Assembly: GCA_028288625.1 (NCBI GenBank)
Contig: JAQBNI010000143.1
Location: 1-38,280, forward strand
DNA from: Bacteroidota bacterium
GTDB lineage: Bacteria > Bacteroidota > Bacteroidia > Chitinophagales > JADIYW01
Direction of reading: 5' to 3'
DNA: 38,280 nucleotides
The notes beneath the pieces are model-generated. The model saw only the letters and a list, made by a program, of their open reading frames with translations, ran no database searches and was not told the DNA's origin. Position 1 is the first letter of the stretch. The number at the start of each line of letters is the position of its first letter. This document shows positions 13,957-33,618 of the stretch, one piece after another. A program made the position numbers and the translations under genes.

Positions 13957-14136
13957 ACGTCTTGTTCAAGAAGATCGGGGGGAATCTACAGCTCTAAAGA
14001 ATTAGTACTCAAAAATAATTATAAAATCGCACATTTGATATATAAAACCAAGTTAACTCTTGTATAAATCGGGCTTTGTGTGTAAGTTGCAAAAAAATTG
14101 TGGATTGAAAATTAATGCTTTGAATTTCAATGATAT

Positions 14137-15252
14137 ATGTTCAAAAATAAGTATATAAATTATAGATGGGAAGATATTTCTGCATCAATTTTTGATGTGC
14201 ATCAAAATACCGTAAAAGCAATTTTATCGGGTGAAAATAAAGCAGCAGAAAAAATGGAAGATTTTTCTGCGCTGATCTCTCCCGCGGCATTTCCTTTTTT
14301 AGATGAAATGATAGCATTGAGTTCGCGAATTACACAGGAACGATTTGGTAAAAATATTCATCTTTTCATTCCATTATATCTCAGCAATGAATGCCAGAAT
14401 ATTTGTACGTATTGCGGGTTTTCTTTCACTAATAAAATTGCGAGGAAAACATTAACAGATGAAGAGATCATCAAAGAAATAGAGATCATAAAATCCTATG
14501 GCTATGATAATGTTTTACTCGTTACGGGCGAAGCAAACCAAACGGTTGGCGTTGATTATTTATTGAATGCAGTAAAAATTGTGAAGCAATATTTCTCGCA
14601 GGTTTCCATTGAAGTGCAGCCGCTTGAACAAGATGAATATGAATTATTAAAAAATGAAGGGGTGTATGCTGTCTTGGTCTACCAGGAAACTTACAACAAG
14701 GAAACCTATAAAAAATTTCACCTGAAAGGGAAGAAGTCGAATTTTGAATATCGACTGGATACGGCGGACAGGCTTGGAAAAGCAGGGGTTCACAAGATAG
14801 GGTTGGGCGTATTGCTCGGTCTGGATGACTGGAGAACGGATAGTTATTTTAATGCATTGCACCTGGATTATTTGCAAAAAAATTACTGGCAGACAAAATA
14901 TTCTGTTTCCTTTCCAAGGATCAGACCGCATGAAGGAGGCGATGACCAGGTTTCTGCGATGACTGAAAAGGAACTGGTGCAGCTGATATGCGCATATCGG
15001 ATTTGTTTTCCAGATGTTGAATTATCGCTGTCGTCGCGGGAGCGCGCACTGTTTCGCGATGCGATGATCTCCTGCGGTATCACCTCGATGAGTGCAGGAA
15101 GCAAAACAGATCCGGGTGGCTATGCTTCACAGGAAAATAATTTAAAGCAATTCGAAACGCACGATACACGTACTCCAGAGGAAATGTCGACCATCATCAA
15201 ATCAAAAAATTACGAACCGGTCTGGAAAGACTGGGATGCAATTCTTTACTAA
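14137..15252 (+). CDS. thiH: 2-iminoacetate synthase ThiH
   Basis: ThiH is a radical SAM enzyme that cleaves tyrosine to dehydroglycine (2-iminoacetate) and p-cresol, supplying the glycine-derived part of the thiamin thiazole to ThiG. At 371 aa it is the usual length. The cluster-binding CxxxCxxC motif is at C86, C90 and C93 (NECQNICTYCGFS). Other family stretches are LLVTGEANQTVG, VEVQPL-type and YQETYN, GLGVLLGLDDWR, SFPRIRPHEGG and the C-terminal SAGSKTDPGGY. The gene is divergent from the 1159-aa cargo gene across a 180-base AT-rich spacer, with no TPP riboswitch visible. Downstream is a strong palindrome that can end transcription before porQ. Confidence 0.96.
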   Translation: MFKNKYINYRWEDISASIFDVHQNTVKAILSGENKAAEKMEDFSALISPAAFPFLDEMIALSSRITQERFGKNIHLFIPLYLSNECQNICTYCGFSFTNKIARKTLTDEEIIKEIEIIKSYGYDNVLLVTGEANQTVGVDYLLNAVKIVKQYFSQVSIEVQPLEQDEYELLKNEGVYAVLVYQETYNKETYKKFHLKGKKSNFEYRLDTADRLGKAGVHKIGLGVLLGLDDWRTDSYFNALHLDYLQKNYWQTKYSVSFPRIRPHEGGDDQVSAMTEKELVQLICAYRICFPDVELSLSSRERALFRDAMISCGITSMSAGSKTDPGGYASQENNLKQFETHDTRTPEEMSTIIKSKNYEPVWKDWDAILY

Positions 15253-15257
15253 TTTTT

Positions 15258-15316
15258 AAACCACATAGATCACATAGAAACAAAGAGATAAATAAACGAT
15301 GTGATCTATGTGGTTT
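15258..15316. terminator. 18-bp perfect-arm palindrome after thiH (CAC-word element)
   Basis: AAACCACATAGATCACAT at 15258-15275 is matched perfectly by its reverse complement at 15299-15316, with a 23-base loop and then TATATTTTT. It starts 6 bases after the thiH stop and is well placed to act as a terminator. The arm is built from CACATAG words also seen in the larger element before cmk. Confidence 0.75.
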
Positions 15317-15341
15317 TATATTTTTAATGCACTATAATTTT

Positions 15342-15349
15342 TATATTTG
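15342..15349 (+). promoter_or_regulatory. -7 element (TATATTTG) of porQ
   Basis: TATATTTG is an exact match to TAnnTTTG and ends 5 bases before the porQ ATG at 15355, implying a leaderless or nearly leaderless transcript. It follows the palindrome after thiH, so porQ appears to be its own transcription unit. Confidence 0.6.
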
Positions 15350-15354
15350 CCATA

Positions 15355-16413
15355 ATGGTTTTTAAGCGTACATATTTCCTTCTATCCTTTTTATGTTCCT
15401 TTGCTTTTTGTAACGCACAAATAGGCGGGAAAAATATTTATGACTTCCTGCAATTTCCAACTTCAGCGAGAATGGAAGGATTGGGTGGAGGAATTCAAAG
15501 CATTAAAAATTCTACAGATGCAGACCTGTCGCTTGCTGTTTCAAATCCATGTTTTTTAGACAGCTCATTTCACAAGCAGCTTTCCATCACCAATTCTTTT
15601 TACATCGATAAAACAAACATCGGCAATATTTCCTTTGCATATCATCAACCGAAAATAAACACCACGTTTGCTTATACCATGCAATATGCGTCTTACGGAA
15701 AGTTTGACGGCAGGGATCCATCAGGAAATCCTACAGGAACTTTTCGGGCGGCAGATTTTAATTTGCAGGTGGGCGCGGGAAGGCACTGGAATAAATTTTA
15801 TTACGGTGTGAATCTCAAATTTATTATTTCCCATCTCGAACATTATTCTTCTGTAGGGTTTGCAACCGATGTTGCACTCGGTTATCACAATCCTAAAACC
15901 AAGTGGACAGCGAGTGTGATTCTCCGTAACGCCGGCATGGAATTGAAGCCATATGTAAAAGGAGAAGGGAGAGAAAAACTTCCCCTGCAGCTGGATGTAT
16001 CTTTTTCAAAACGTTTCAAGCATCTTCCATTAACGCTTTGTGTTACGGTACATGACCTGCAGGTATGGGATTTAAAATATCCGCAGGAAGAAGAGCAGAC
16101 TATTTTGCTCGGCACGCAAAAAAAGAAAAATAAAAGCACGGAGATCATCGATAATATTTTCCGCCATTTCGCGATCGGGGCGGAGATACAGGCAGGAAAA
16201 CCGGTGCGACTACGGTTCGGCTATAATCATTTACGACGCCAGGAATTAGGTGTCGGAAAGAAAAAAGGCTTTGCGGGAATTACTGCGGGCGTCGGTGTAA
16301 ATATTAAGCAATTTGCACTCGATTATTCATATGCGCAGTACCACAGAACAGGCAGTGACCATGAGCTTACACTGCGAATTAAGCTTGATGAATTCGGGCA
16401 TAAAGCAAAGTAG
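15355..16413 (+). CDS. porQ: type IX secretion system outer-membrane protein PorQ
   Basis: This 352-aa protein has a signal peptide (cleavage near FCNAQ, residue 22) followed by the characteristic start IGGKNIYDFLQFPTSARMEG, with GLGG and later NPCFLD. The remainder alternates amphipathic strands with aromatic ends, as expected of a FadL/PorV-type outer-membrane barrel. In the T9SS, PorQ belongs to the cell-surface attachment complex with PorU, PorV and PorZ, which removes sorting domains and links cargo to the surface. The neighbouring cmk gene supports the call, because porQ-cmk adjacency also occurs in Porphyromonas (recalled, not checked). Here the pair is separated by 300 bases of repeat-like DNA. 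The two T9SS cargo genes in this window are plausible clients. Confidence 0.9.
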   Translation: MVFKRTYFLLSFLCSFAFCNAQIGGKNIYDFLQFPTSARMEGLGGGIQSIKNSTDADLSLAVSNPCFLDSSFHKQLSITNSFYIDKTNIGNISFAYHQPKINTTFAYTMQYASYGKFDGRDPSGNPTGTFRAADFNLQVGAGRHWNKFYYGVNLKFIISHLEHYSSVGFATDVALGYHNPKTKWTASVILRNAGMELKPYVKGEGREKLPLQLDVSFSKRFKHLPLTLCVTVHDLQVWDLKYPQEEEQTILLGTQKKKNKSTEIIDNIFRHFAIGAEIQAGKPVRLRFGYNHLRRQELGVGKKKGFAGITAGVGVNIKQFALDYSYAQYHRTGSDHELTLRIKLDEFGHKAK

Positions 16414-16431
16414 ATGAGAGTTATGATTTTA

Positions 16432-16474
16432 GAATTACGATTTACGACTTATTGTAGACGCTTACGACTCACGA
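16432..16474. repeat. word repeat (ACGATTTACGAC family)
   Basis: This is a degenerate short tandem repeat of TTACGA-like words, GAATTACGATTTACGAC followed by TTACGACTCACGA. Its reverse complement reads as TCGTAAATCGTAA-type words, the same family as the repeat just before pyrD at 35708-35741. It lies 18 bases after the porQ stop. Confidence 0.6.
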
Positions 16475-16484
16475 AATAAAAATA

Positions 16485-16694
16485 AACCACATAGGACACA
16501 TAATAATTTTTAAACCACTTAAGGCACGAAGACACGAAGATTAAGAGCAGTTAATTTTATAGCAAAGAAAAGAAGCGTAGCTTCACTATTGTGATCTAAT
16601 ATAATAGAAGAATTCTATCGCCTATTTTGCTTTGTTCCTTAAGTTTCTCAGTGGTTAGAAAACATAGAAAACATTTCTATGATTCTATGTGGTT
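16485..16694. repeat. nested palindromic CAC-word element between porQ and cmk
   Basis: With its flanks, this fills the 300-base gap between porQ and cmk. The outer arms AACCACATAG (16485-16494) and CTATGTGGTT (16685-16694) are perfect inverted repeats. Inside them, AAACCACTTAAGG (16512-16524) pairs with CCTTAAG...CAGTGGTT (16637-16656). The left half continues with CACGAAG words (GGCACGAAGACACGAAG). No ORF of note lies inside. The size and nested inverted termini suggest a MITE-like or remnant element. Its inner terminus matches the ends that bracket the GxxExxY gene at 33144-33618. Confidence 0.65.
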
Positions 16695-16698
16695 AAAA

Positions 16699-16706
16699 TA
16701 TTTTAG
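16699..16706 (+). promoter_or_regulatory. likely -7 element (TATTTTAG) of cmk
   Basis: TATTTTAG is one mismatch from TAnnTTTG and ends 7 bases before the cmk ATG at 16714. It starts 5 bases after the outer arm of the palindromic element, so the repeat abuts the promoter and must carry or replace the -33 region. Confidence 0.4.
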
Positions 16707-16713
16707 ATAAACT

Positions 16714-17400
16714 ATGACTCGAAAAATCAACATTGCAATAGACGGTTACTCTGCTTGTGGAAAATCTTCCACCGCTAAACAGGTTGCAAAAAAATTAGAT
16801 TATATCTATATCGATACCGGCGCAATGTACCGCGCCGTTACCTTGTATTTTCAGCAGCATTTAATAGACGTCGACAATCTCGAGGAAATAGAAAATTCAT
16901 TGCCGCAGATCAAGGTTGATTTCAGGAAAGTGGGAGATGTGCATCATACTTTTTTAAATGATGTGGATGTGGAAAGTGAAATACGTCAACCGCTGATCGC
17001 AGCAGTAGTTTCGGAAGTGGCAGCCATGAGCAACGTGCGAAAAAAACTCGTGCAGCAGCAAAAAATTATGGCTGCAAAGAAAGGCGTGGTGATGGAAGGA
17101 AGAGATATTGGTTCTGTAGTCATCCCCGATGCTGAATTAAAATATTTTATGACTGCAGATCTCGATGTGAGAACAAAACGGAGACAGGAAGAATTGCGCA
17201 AGGATACGGGAAGATTATTTCCGCTGGAAGAATTAAAAGCCAACCTGCGGCATCGCGATAAAATAGATTCAACACGTGAAGATAGTCCGCTTACAAAAGT
17301 TCCGGACGCGATTGAAATTGATACGACTCATCTCACCCTGGAAAAACAAATTAATTTGATCTACGATAATGCGTTGGAAAAGATTGAAGGAAAGTTATAA
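16714..17400 (+). CDS. cmk: cytidylate kinase
   Basis: Cmk phosphorylates CMP and dCMP with ATP in the cytoplasm, a salvage and recycling step feeding CTP and dCTP. The 228-aa length is typical. The P-loop is GYSACGKSS at residues 11-19, in the Bacteroidota-like form. It is followed by DTGAMYRAVTLY, the substrate-binding GRDIGSVVIPDAELKYF (about residues 129-145), the arginine-rich VRTKRRQEEL lid region and RDKIDSTREDSPL, which contacts CMP. The ATG sits 7 bases after a probable -7 element. Upstream is porQ, the usual partner, separated by a palindromic element. The gene's end runs into an AAGTTATAAGTTAT word repeat that includes the stop codon. Confidence 0.96.
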   Translation: MTRKINIAIDGYSACGKSSTAKQVAKKLDYIYIDTGAMYRAVTLYFQQHLIDVDNLEEIENSLPQIKVDFRKVGDVHHTFLNDVDVESEIRQPLIAAVVSEVAAMSNVRKKLVQQQKIMAAKKGVVMEGRDIGSVVIPDAELKYFMTADLDVRTKRRQEELRKDTGRLFPLEELKANLRHRDKIDSTREDSPLTKVPDAIEIDTTHLTLEKQINLIYDNALEKIEGKL

Positions 17401-17428
17401 GTTATAAGTTATCTGTTATAAGTTATAT
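17391..17428. repeat. word repeat (AAGTTATAAGTTAT family) over the cmk stop
   Basis: Imperfect repeats of AAGTTAT run from the last codons of cmk across its stop: AAGTTATAAGTTAT, then CTGTTATAAGTTAT. The last cmk codons are therefore part of the repeat. Confidence 0.6.
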
Positions 17429-17466
17429 GGCTTTCGTCATTCGCAATACGCACTACGCATACTTTT

Positions 17467-17513
17467 CTCAACTCTCTTCTCTCACATCTTAACTCTACTT
17501 CTCTCCTCTTCTA
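17467..17513. repeat. pyrimidine-rich word repeat overlapping the end of the SRPBCC gene
   Basis: Repeats of CTC, AACTCT and TTCTCTC run through 17467-17513. The last residues of the minus-strand SRPBCC protein (RRGEK) are encoded inside this stretch, so the repeat supplies the present C-terminus. Nearby, 17436-17461 holds a related pattern, TTCGCAATACGCACTACGC. Confidence 0.5.
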
Positions 17514-17953
17514 AATTCAAAAGCTCCCTTTCTTAAATTAATTCCATATTCAACATACGCTTTTAGACACGCAAGAAAATTAGCCCAGCCTTCTGTATTT
17601 CCTTTCACCCAATTAATTCCCGCTTCATCATTTTTTTTGCTTTTTTCGGTAACAATGATGACAGTGGAATTATCTTCTTTTTCTGTAAGCGTCATTTCTA
17701 CAAGTGTCTGTTTGCCTTCAGCGCCCCAGTAATAAGAGACGTATTTATCCTTTTCTATTTTTCCGATACGCACCGGAACTTTTATATCGAATTCAGGAAA
17801 CCTCCACACCAATTCCTTTCCTTCTTCCATTCTGCCTGTACTTTCCGAAATAAAATAATTCGACATTTTCGCAGGATCAACAATCGCTTCAAAAACTTCA
17901 TTCGCCGTTTTTTGTATTTGTATGCCCGCTTTTATCTCCAGTTGGTTTTCCAT
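17495..17953 (-). CDS. SRPBCC / AHSA1-domain protein
   Basis: This 152-aa protein belongs to the START-like SRPBCC fold, close to the AHSA1 (activator of Hsp90 ATPase homologue) subgroup. It begins with the typical first strand and helix IQKTANEVFEAIVDPAKMSNYF, then EGKELVWRFPEFDIKVPVRI, TLVEMTLTEKEDNSTVIIVTE, and a C-terminal helix with W and F residues (EGWANFLACLKAYVEYG). Such proteins bind hydrophobic ligands, or assist chaperones in eukaryotes; bacterial members are mostly uncharacterised, so no substrate is proposed. It is a single gene convergent with cmk. The last residues fall within a pyrimidine-rich repeat and look like a repeat-derived tail. The ATG is clear and no signal peptide is present. 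Confidence 0.82.
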   Translation of the reverse strand: MENQLEIKAGIQIQKTANEVFEAIVDPAKMSNYFISESTGRMEEGKELVWRFPEFDIKVPVRIGKIEKDKYVSYYWGAEGKQTLVEMTLTEKEDNSTVIIVTEKSKKNDEAGINWVKGNTEGWANFLACLKAYVEYGINLRKGAFEFRRGEK

Positions 17954-18078
17954 TTTATTAATTTGTTTGTTTTTACCAATGAGTAAATTTAAAAGTAATG
18001 TTTGAAAAAAAGCATAAAATAAATTAACTGATTTTTTCTTAATTCAACTTTTTATTTATCTTTAAAAAAAATAATCAT

Positions 18079-33143: not shown

Positions 33144-33618
33144 AAACCACTTAAGGCACTTAAGATACTAAGAATTATAGCAATTCAGCAAAATACTGAT
33201 TTACTAGTGAGGTTGTATTATTTACAATATTGTCCGAATTAAAATTTATTAATAATCCTTTTGGTTTTTTTAAAAGCTTCATGTAAGTCAGTAATTGTGC
33301 ACTGTATAAAGGAAGCAAAGTTTCTACAGCTTTTAATTCAACGATAATAGAATTTTCTACAAGTATATCTAATCTTAAATCACAATCCATCTCAATGTCT
33401 TTATATCTTATTGGAAGTTTTAATTGTGATACTATATTCAGATTTTTTCTCTTTAATTCCTCTTCAAGACATCTTTGATAAATAGATTCAAGAAGACCAG
33501 GTCCCAGTTCTTTATGGACTTCTATCGCACAACCAACAATCTTGTATGATAAGTCATTTATGTATTTTTGTGTGATGACCATTTCTTTCTTTTGTTCCTA
33601 CAGTTCCTTAAGTGGTTT
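33144..33618 (-). mobile_element. putative inverted-repeat-bounded GxxExxY cassette
   Basis: AAACCACTTAAGG at 33144-33156 and its exact 13-base reverse complement at 33606-33618 bracket a single gene, the GxxExxY nuclease-fold ORF. In gene direction, the cassette opens with AAACCACTTAAGGAAC, and the ATG comes 23 bases after the repeat. The stop is 18 bases from the other repeat, which also has a doubled CACTTAAG unit. The cassette fits exactly into the space between kdsA and rarA. No transposase is present. The same terminal motif occurs in the gene-free element before cmk (16512-16524). Mobility is inferred from this structure, not shown. Confidence 0.5.
33175..33582 (-). CDS. GxxExxY family protein (PD-(D/E)XK nuclease-like)
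   Basis: This 135-aa protein of the GxxExxY family has the naming motif at G29-E32-Y35 in ELGPGLLESIY, preceded by the conserved AIEVHKELG helix. The PD-(D/E)XK-like core is visible as D72 in LRLDILVENS, then E82-x-K84 in IIVELKAVE. A C-terminal QLLTYMKLLKKPKGLLINFN segment also fits the family. These proteins are thought to be nuclease-fold proteins of unknown role and can occur in many copies per genome. The gene is complete and sits between inverted AAACCACTTAAGG repeats, which suggests it travels with them. It may provide the cutting activity for its own spread; this is speculation. Confidence 0.9.
   Translation of the reverse strand: MVITQKYINDLSYKIVGCAIEVHKELGPGLLESIYQRCLEEELKRKNLNIVSQLKLPIRYKDIEMDCDLRLDILVENSIIVELKAVETLLPLYSAQLLTYMKLLKKPKGLLINFNSDNIVNNTTSLVNQYFAELL

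Follow-up and report, generated by a model that had tools for sequence, protein, structure and literature searches.

What kind of DNA occupies the spacer between porQ and cmk in a Bacteroidota bacterium (Chitinophagales; JADIYW01; assembly GCA_028288625.1), and how did it come to be there? The stretch analysed here, referred to as the window, is contig JAQBNI010000143.1, positions 1 to 38,280 (38,280 nt). In the window, porQ (15355-16413, NF033711) and cmk (16714-17400, TIGR00017) enclose a 300-bp spacer containing a 210-bp nested palindrome. This element is a copy of a repeated gene-free family that has spread in one species. It shares its inner end with a cassette in the same window carrying a GxxExxY gene, and inverted arrays of short words surround GxxExxY genes in many phyla. 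It is proposed, with confidence and doubt in about equal measure, that the palindrome belongs to a lineage-specific family of small elements as one of its non-coding members, and that the GxxExxY nuclease keeps and spreads both the cassettes and the gene-free copies.

A first-pass annotation, made from the sequence alone, had described a nested, gene-free palindrome at this position, and that description holds. The outer arms, AACCACATAG and CTATGTGGTT, are complementary at 10 of 10 positions, the open reading frame (ORF) list contains no ORF of at least 90 aa within the 210 bp, and an Rfam search of window positions 14000-18000 returned no match up to E = 1. The nesting of the inner arms stands as described for the left arm, in which CACGAAG is present twice, and only partly for the right arm (CCTTAAG TTTCT CAGTGGTT), where 13-15 nt segments are complementary at 85-87% and the end is a variant with CACTGAG replacing CACTTAAG. 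The doubled CACGAAG bears out a suggestion of internal growth by short-unit duplication, and tandem words are plainer still in a second copy, at C133 (see below). The 12-mer AACCACTTAAGG lies at 16513-16524 and recurs exactly in the window only at 33145-33156 and 33606-33617 (reverse strand). These two sites are the two ends of the GxxExxY cassette, as had been noticed for the inner terminus.

Copies of the element in the source genome

The source genome comprises 3.71 Mb in 161 contigs, and the control for each count was the same pattern read backwards. Exact AACCACATAG sites number 38 in the whole genome against 4 for the reversed control; a single-copy sequence, which would have spoken against the mobile origin suggested earlier, is not what is seen. 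Grouped by reading of the site list, the sites make up 24 places, of which one, at C128, looks coding. There are 12 exact inverted AACCACATAG pairs, with spans of 36-448 bp; 11 have no gene, and inside the twelfth (C34) is a GxxExxY gene, one of four in the genome, which encodes a PD-(D/E)XK-like protein. Whether a GxxExxY ORF is always present in full-length copies had been put forward as a check, and it is not, with 1 of the 12 exact pairs having one. The remaining places include several single or decayed arms. The AACCACTTAAG type of end is not in excess by count, since its 6 sites compare with 5 for the control; 4 of the 6 lie within the elements at C73 and C133.

The complete nest has a second, homologous copy, likewise with both pairs of arms, on the minus strand at C133:16423-16786. 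Its identity to the window element is 75% on the left and 77% on the right, the odd right inner end CTCAGTGGTTA is common to both, and extra left-arm unit repeats sit between the two matching sides of the C133 copy. Because the two-layer unit recurs there, a single event in which one element inserted into another does not account for the nest; the two layers make up a composite that has itself been copied (C73 and C133). Most copies are alike at their ends only. Four gene-free copies (C39, C95, C136 and C153) also have a central hairpin region in common, and the interiors of C95/C153, C39/C136, C39/C153 and C136/C153 are related beyond 100 shuffles. Derivation of the element by deletion from a cassette, which the first-pass annotation had offered, was rejected: gene-free interiors do not align with the C34 cassette or the window cassette beyond shuffles (16 interior-cassette comparisons, lowest shuffle count 3/60), and no trace of a deleted GxxExxY gene was found in them.

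The window element has terminal inverted repeats (TIRs), no coding capacity and many relatives in the genome, and like miniature inverted-repeat transposable elements (MITEs; NEMIS, RUP, ERIC and similar, 70-300 bp) it is small and intergenic. A classical MITE moved by a DDE transposase with matching ends is nevertheless quite improbable. No transposase was seen between or beside the ends in the own-genome loci examined or among 8 scanned neighbour proteins, the whole genome not having been searched for transposases. Nothing consistent was found in the way of target duplication at 21 elements, where exact flanking repeats of at least 4 bp are near chance, a single 7-bp A/T flanking duplication occurs and A/T-rich flanks limit the comparison. 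The restriction of similarity to the ends in most copies, with four also alike at the centre, likewise argues against a classical MITE. The earlier label of MITE-type is therefore retained for a repeated, mobile-like and gene-free sequence, and given up where it implies a classical MITE with a transposase parent.

The context of the 24 sites was called with a simple ORF caller, one site being without a call on its left side. Sixteen of the 24 sites lie between same-direction genes, 5 between convergent genes and some between divergent genes. Arms often start 6-7 bp after a stop codon (9 of 26 stop-facing sides in the source genome, where this gap is made up of A/T only, and 7 of 32 in the panel of loci L147-L226; C135 is excluded from these counts).

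The porQ-cmk spacer in relatives

The porQ-cmk spacer measures 17 bp in G296, 46 bp in G299 and about 2 bp in G305, a member of the same family, against 300 bp here. The gene pair is otherwise tight, in line with the conserved pair described earlier, and the possibility of a spacer conserved across relatives, which would have spoken against mobility, is not borne out. In seven other members of the genus, AACCACATAG occurs in 1-8 places against 6-24 for the control; because these genomes show no excess, the family is one that expanded in the source lineage. In two genus relatives, G297 (L131) and G300 (L133), the spacer contains an unrelated inverted word array (TAATTTGATAATT.../...CATCAAATTA). 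Judged from the different arrays in these two genomes, the spacer looks as if it were a repeated landing site.

The relatives also bear on the possibility that the palindromes are host transcription terminators or mRNA-end hairpins that resemble mobile DNA, as A/T-flanked hairpins so often found 6-7 bp past a stop codon might be. This is very improbable: the hairpin is absent from the same spacer in genus relatives, the excess is species-restricted, sites occur also between co-directional and divergent genes, and homologous two-layer copies stand at unrelated loci.

The GxxExxY protein

The GxxExxY gene in the window (TIGR04256/PF13366) scores above the curated cut-offs, with 144 bits against 35 and 138.8 against 22. 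The residues G20, E23, Y26, D63, E73, K75, Q87 and Y91 are invariant in 30 aligned sequences, and the D, ExK and Q...Y pattern among them is taken here to be the RecB/Cas4-type PD-(D/E)XK nuclease motif. An alignment-based structure model reached a predicted local distance difference test score (pLDDT) of 89.9; a single-sequence model without an alignment reached 43.4 and was not used. The best fold match is 4ic1 (SSO0001, a Cas4), with a Foldseek E of 8.5e-3, a probability of 1.00 and a Z of 9.3, and lower matches include Cas4 4r5q (Z 6.6), lambda exonuclease, MGME1 and restriction enzymes. The top fold matches are nucleases of the PD-(D/E)XK fold. A PDB sequence search with the A1 profile gave no match up to E = 1, and hence no solved sequence relative. 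By its motif and predicted fold, GxxExxY is probably a Cas4/RecB-like PD-(D/E)XK nuclease.

A GxxExxY gene of the source genome at C132 (L032 1443-1921) has ACACGGATTATTATGAT-type inverted ends and lies between sdhA-like and sdhB-like genes, the likeness coming from a reading of the sequences; after the sdhB-like gene comes a CACATAG palindrome of 40 bp.

Word arrays around GxxExxY genes across phyla

A scan of the genome collection yielded 80 named GxxExxY loci, from Bacteroidota, Planctomycetota, Pseudomonadota, Acidobacteriota, Verrucomicrobiota, Chloroflexota, Cyanobacteriota and others. Inverted arms better than those in any of 100 dinucleotide shuffles were found at 54 of 76 testable loci, and the corresponding figure for control positions within these loci was 2 of 129; 4 of the 80 loci, at contig ends, were dropped, and the match end was often the default of 1820 rather than the tabulated value, with differences under 20 bp. 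A second set, from the source genome and its phylum, had arms at 21 of 30 GxxExxY loci and at none of 60 controls (30 of 34 loci were used; L097, L101 and L108 were omitted as contig ends and L107 for an internal stop). With cmk genes as a control, inverted arms were found at 0 of 15 loci (3 of 18 were lost). Pairing of arms across loci was dropped as a control, because the left arm of one locus and the right arm of another have words in common, and was replaced by shuffles and other gene positions.

The arms consist of tandem words, mostly CRCNNAG, with a step of 8-11 bp, read inward from ACCRC. The CRCNNAG pattern, which was picked after viewing the arms of the same loci, occurs 14.1 and 12.7 times per kb in the arm orientation, 4.0 and 4.8 times on the other strand and 1.6 times in controls, and both arms have at least two such words at 39 of 80 loci. 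Word identity between left and right is 0.46 within an element and 0.15 between elements. Among the GxxExxY copies, L164, L168 and L215 have in-frame stops; L168 and L215 keep word arrays on both sides.

When word type is placed on a tree of 106 GxxExxY proteins, of which 70 are labelled by word type and in which many forks are weakly supported, 21 changes are required; 500 shuffles need 35.1 on average and never fewer than 31, or never fewer than 29 when the shuffling is within phyla. Word type tracks the protein tree, and arms and gene are therefore inherited as one unit. The tree sister of the C34 copy (L033, CACATAG) is L200, from Algoriphagus boritolerans, which likewise has CACATAG.

Gene-free palindromes are also present in G292, a genome from another family of the same order, in which 7 of 13 inspected AACCACARAG sites (53 in all) are palindromes 53-147 bp long in which no open frame exceeds 48 aa, and their ends resemble those of the genome's own GxxExxY cassette, L089. 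Of 296 genomes of the phylum, 151 carry GxxExxY (PF13366), and 19 are enriched in AACCACARAG (at least 20 sites and at least twice the control); PF13366 is present in 19 of these 19 (p 2e-6, kinship uncorrected). Under the reverse criterion, 19 of 27 selected genomes are carriers, and for this reason genome size is a possible confounder; GxxExxY presence may be tied to larger genomes.

In a TIRtron, as set out in PMC3733652, a gene lies between inverted repeats, and copies of these repeats without the gene constitute a family; this layout is the same as the one found here. The elements might accordingly be REPINs, or TIR repeats, that belong to an unseen Y1 transposase (RAYT/TIRYT, for example of Bacteroidetes subclass 2.6, whose Y1 genes have atypical flanking structures according to PMC6006769), with GxxExxY a mere passenger in one copy. 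A hidden Y1 gene is the most serious rival, because the Y1 scan covered the own-genome loci examined and not the whole genome, but it is unlikely. In those loci, the rest of the genome not having been searched for Y1, none of 416 open frames of at least 90 aa has an HUH plus Y motif. The 8 scanned neighbour proteins are not transposases, and it is to GxxExxY genes that the arms are tied over many phyla and to the GxxExxY tree that word type corresponds.

23S-IVP genes in the same frame

Inverted word arrays also surround genes for 23S-IVP (PF05635), a four-helix-bundle protein. The source genome has nine such genes, eight of them above the cut-off, and 116 of 148 genomes of the phylum carry 23S-IVP. 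Arrays were found at 22 of 35 loci and at none of 70 control positions (35 of 38 loci were used, two truncated loci and one with N being omitted; the ninth own match, L127, which is under the cut-off, was not included). Their words are about 7 bp long, as in AGTCGTA, AGTATCA and TAGCTGT.

This layout is a point in favour of an RNA-level explanation, in which the elements resemble intervening sequences whose arms pair in the transcript and are excised by RNase III, with operon insertions tolerated. PMC4990558 describes 23S intervening sequences as ORF-bearing stem-loops excised by RNase III, and the 16 of 24 sites between same-direction genes point the same way. Such an explanation is improbable for several reasons. 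Among arm mismatches on the sense strand in the 30-locus set, G.U (101) does not exceed A.C (116; p 0.34), which does not speak for a role at the RNA level alone and is as expected if the action is on DNA. Five of the 24 sites are between convergent genes, and RNA excision alone leaves the spread unexplained. The 23S rRNA intervening sequences with an S23/IVP ORF share with the present elements a small ORF between inverted repeats, and IVP genes of the phylum have inverted word arrays, whereas the window element lies between porQ and cmk rather than in rRNA, has other words and contains no ORF.

Other features of the window

The coordinates are collected in Table 1. The second outer-type palindrome has perfect 18-nt arms (15258-15275 / 15299-15316). 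On the porQ side of the porQ-cmk spacer, the words (TTACGATTTACGA...CTTACGACTCACGA) are similar to the arms (AGTCGTAAGTCGTAAG) that flank the C35 23S-IVP gene (L119). At the cmk stop codon (17392-17427), a 7-bp word is present five times head-to-tail (AAGTTAT, one CTGTTAT), and this array has the period-7 grammar seen in arms around 23S-IVP genes.

Table 1. Features of the window related to the nested palindrome
Feature	Position	Strand	Remarks
Whole nested gene-free palindromic element, outer CACATAG-word type	16485..16694	.	210 bp
Outer left arm: AACCACATAG GA CACATA	16485..16502	+	AACCACATAG itself at 16485-16494
Outer right arm region: CATAG words, terminal CTATGTGGTT	16660..16694	-	CTATGTGGTT itself at 16685-16694
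Inner palindrome, CACTTAAGG/CACGAAG-word type	16513..16655	.	
Inner left arm: AACCACTTAAGG CACGAAG A CACGAAG	16513..16539	+	
Inner right arm, imperfect: CTTTGTTCCTTAAGTTTCTCAGTGGT	16630..16655	-	
Second outer-type palindrome, 57 bp	15259..15315	.	Between thiH and porQ
GxxExxY cassette, AACCACTTAAGG ends	33145..33617	.	Flanked by kdsA-like and RarA-like AAA genes
GxxExxY gene (TIGR04256 / PF13366), PD-(D/E)XK-like, 135 aa	33175..33582	-	
porQ-cmk spacer, left part: TTACGA-type words	16421..16474	+	Resemble words around the 23S-IVP gene on C35

Proposed mobilisation by GxxExxY

Each element comprises two inverted arrays of short tandem words around a variable centre (the words here being CACATAG, with an inner CACTTAAGG/CACGAAG layer), and the cassettes that carry a GxxExxY gene are bounded by the same arrays. 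In the proposed mechanism, the GxxExxY nuclease would act at the DNA level, where it may recognise or cut these arrays or the hairpins that they form; the agreement of the two arms is compatible with protein recognition or with hairpin DNA. Through this action, cassettes and gene-free copies would be retained and spread, the gene-free copies presumably being mobilised in trans, and insertions would survive mostly in short intergenic spacers, often 6-7 bp past a stop codon. The role of GxxExxY would be analogous to that of the Y1 transposase in REPIN/RAYT or TIRtron systems, and by this analogy the element is read here as REPIN/TIRtron-like, with GxxExxY in place of the Y1 transposase.

Several points weigh against this proposal. 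At 22 of the 76 GxxExxY loci, the arms did not beat every shuffle. Since the arms are physically joined to the gene, the agreement between words and proteins indicates co-inheritance and is no proof of recognition. The fold matches are weak, with none at E <= 0.001 in Foldseek. An excess of the word is present in only some of the genomes that have GxxExxY, and the association is clear only in the enriched tail; over the 296 genomes of the phylum, the shift in AACCACARAG counts between carriers and non-carriers is not significant overall (Mann-Whitney p 0.32). The ACACGGATT-type cassette at C132 has no gene-free population (8 sites against 8 for the control), and the 21 elements lack a consistent target duplication. 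GxxExxY activity, element excision and transposition are themselves putative.

Comparison with known systems

REPIN/RAYT systems, as described in PMC3116915 and PMC6006769, consist of small gene-free inverted doublets in intergenic DNA, with genome-specific words, clusters and one cognate gene that has the same repeats. The present elements are alike in being gene-free inverted doublets and intergenic hairpins, in their genome-specific words and clusters, and in having a cognate gene flanked by the same repeats. In contrast to REPINs, they have no GTAG/CGTC foot, their arms begin with AACCAC and are arrays of 7-bp words, and the cognate candidate is PD-(D/E)XK-like, whereas RAYT is a Y1 transposase. 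TIRtrons share the inverted-repeat-flanked gene with a family of gene-free copies, but TIRYT is a tyrosine transposase and the protein here is GxxExxY (or 23S-IVP), and the published TIR motif, GGGGWSAS, differs from the motif found here. The difference from MITEs lies in the transposase parent, which was not seen near the elements, and in the lack of a consistent target duplication at the 21 elements.

In the open-licence PMC literature searched, no paper was found to connect arrays of this kind with GxxExxY, or with 23S-IVP genes that lie outside rRNA, no function was found for GxxExxY, and neither PDDEXK_3 nor the 17-mer ACCACAGAGACACAGAG was mentioned.

Significance

Tentatively, and with a little more doubt than confidence, the elements may belong to a widespread class of small mobile DNA that lacks a known transposase. 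In this class, a PD-(D/E)XK (GxxExxY) or four-helix-bundle (23S-IVP) gene would lie between inverted arrays of lineage-specific words and give rise to populations of gene-free hairpins, and GxxExxY would be the mobilising nuclease, an independently evolved counterpart of RAYT. GxxExxY and 23S-IVP proteins are common, and a testable role for them follows from their place in a single kind of element, whose arrays accompany the gene from phylum to phylum and which also has copies that lack the gene. If the proposal is true, much of the repetitive spacer DNA in these genomes would be explained, and it would also be relevant to the way in which 23S intervening sequences, for which no transposase is known, are able to spread.
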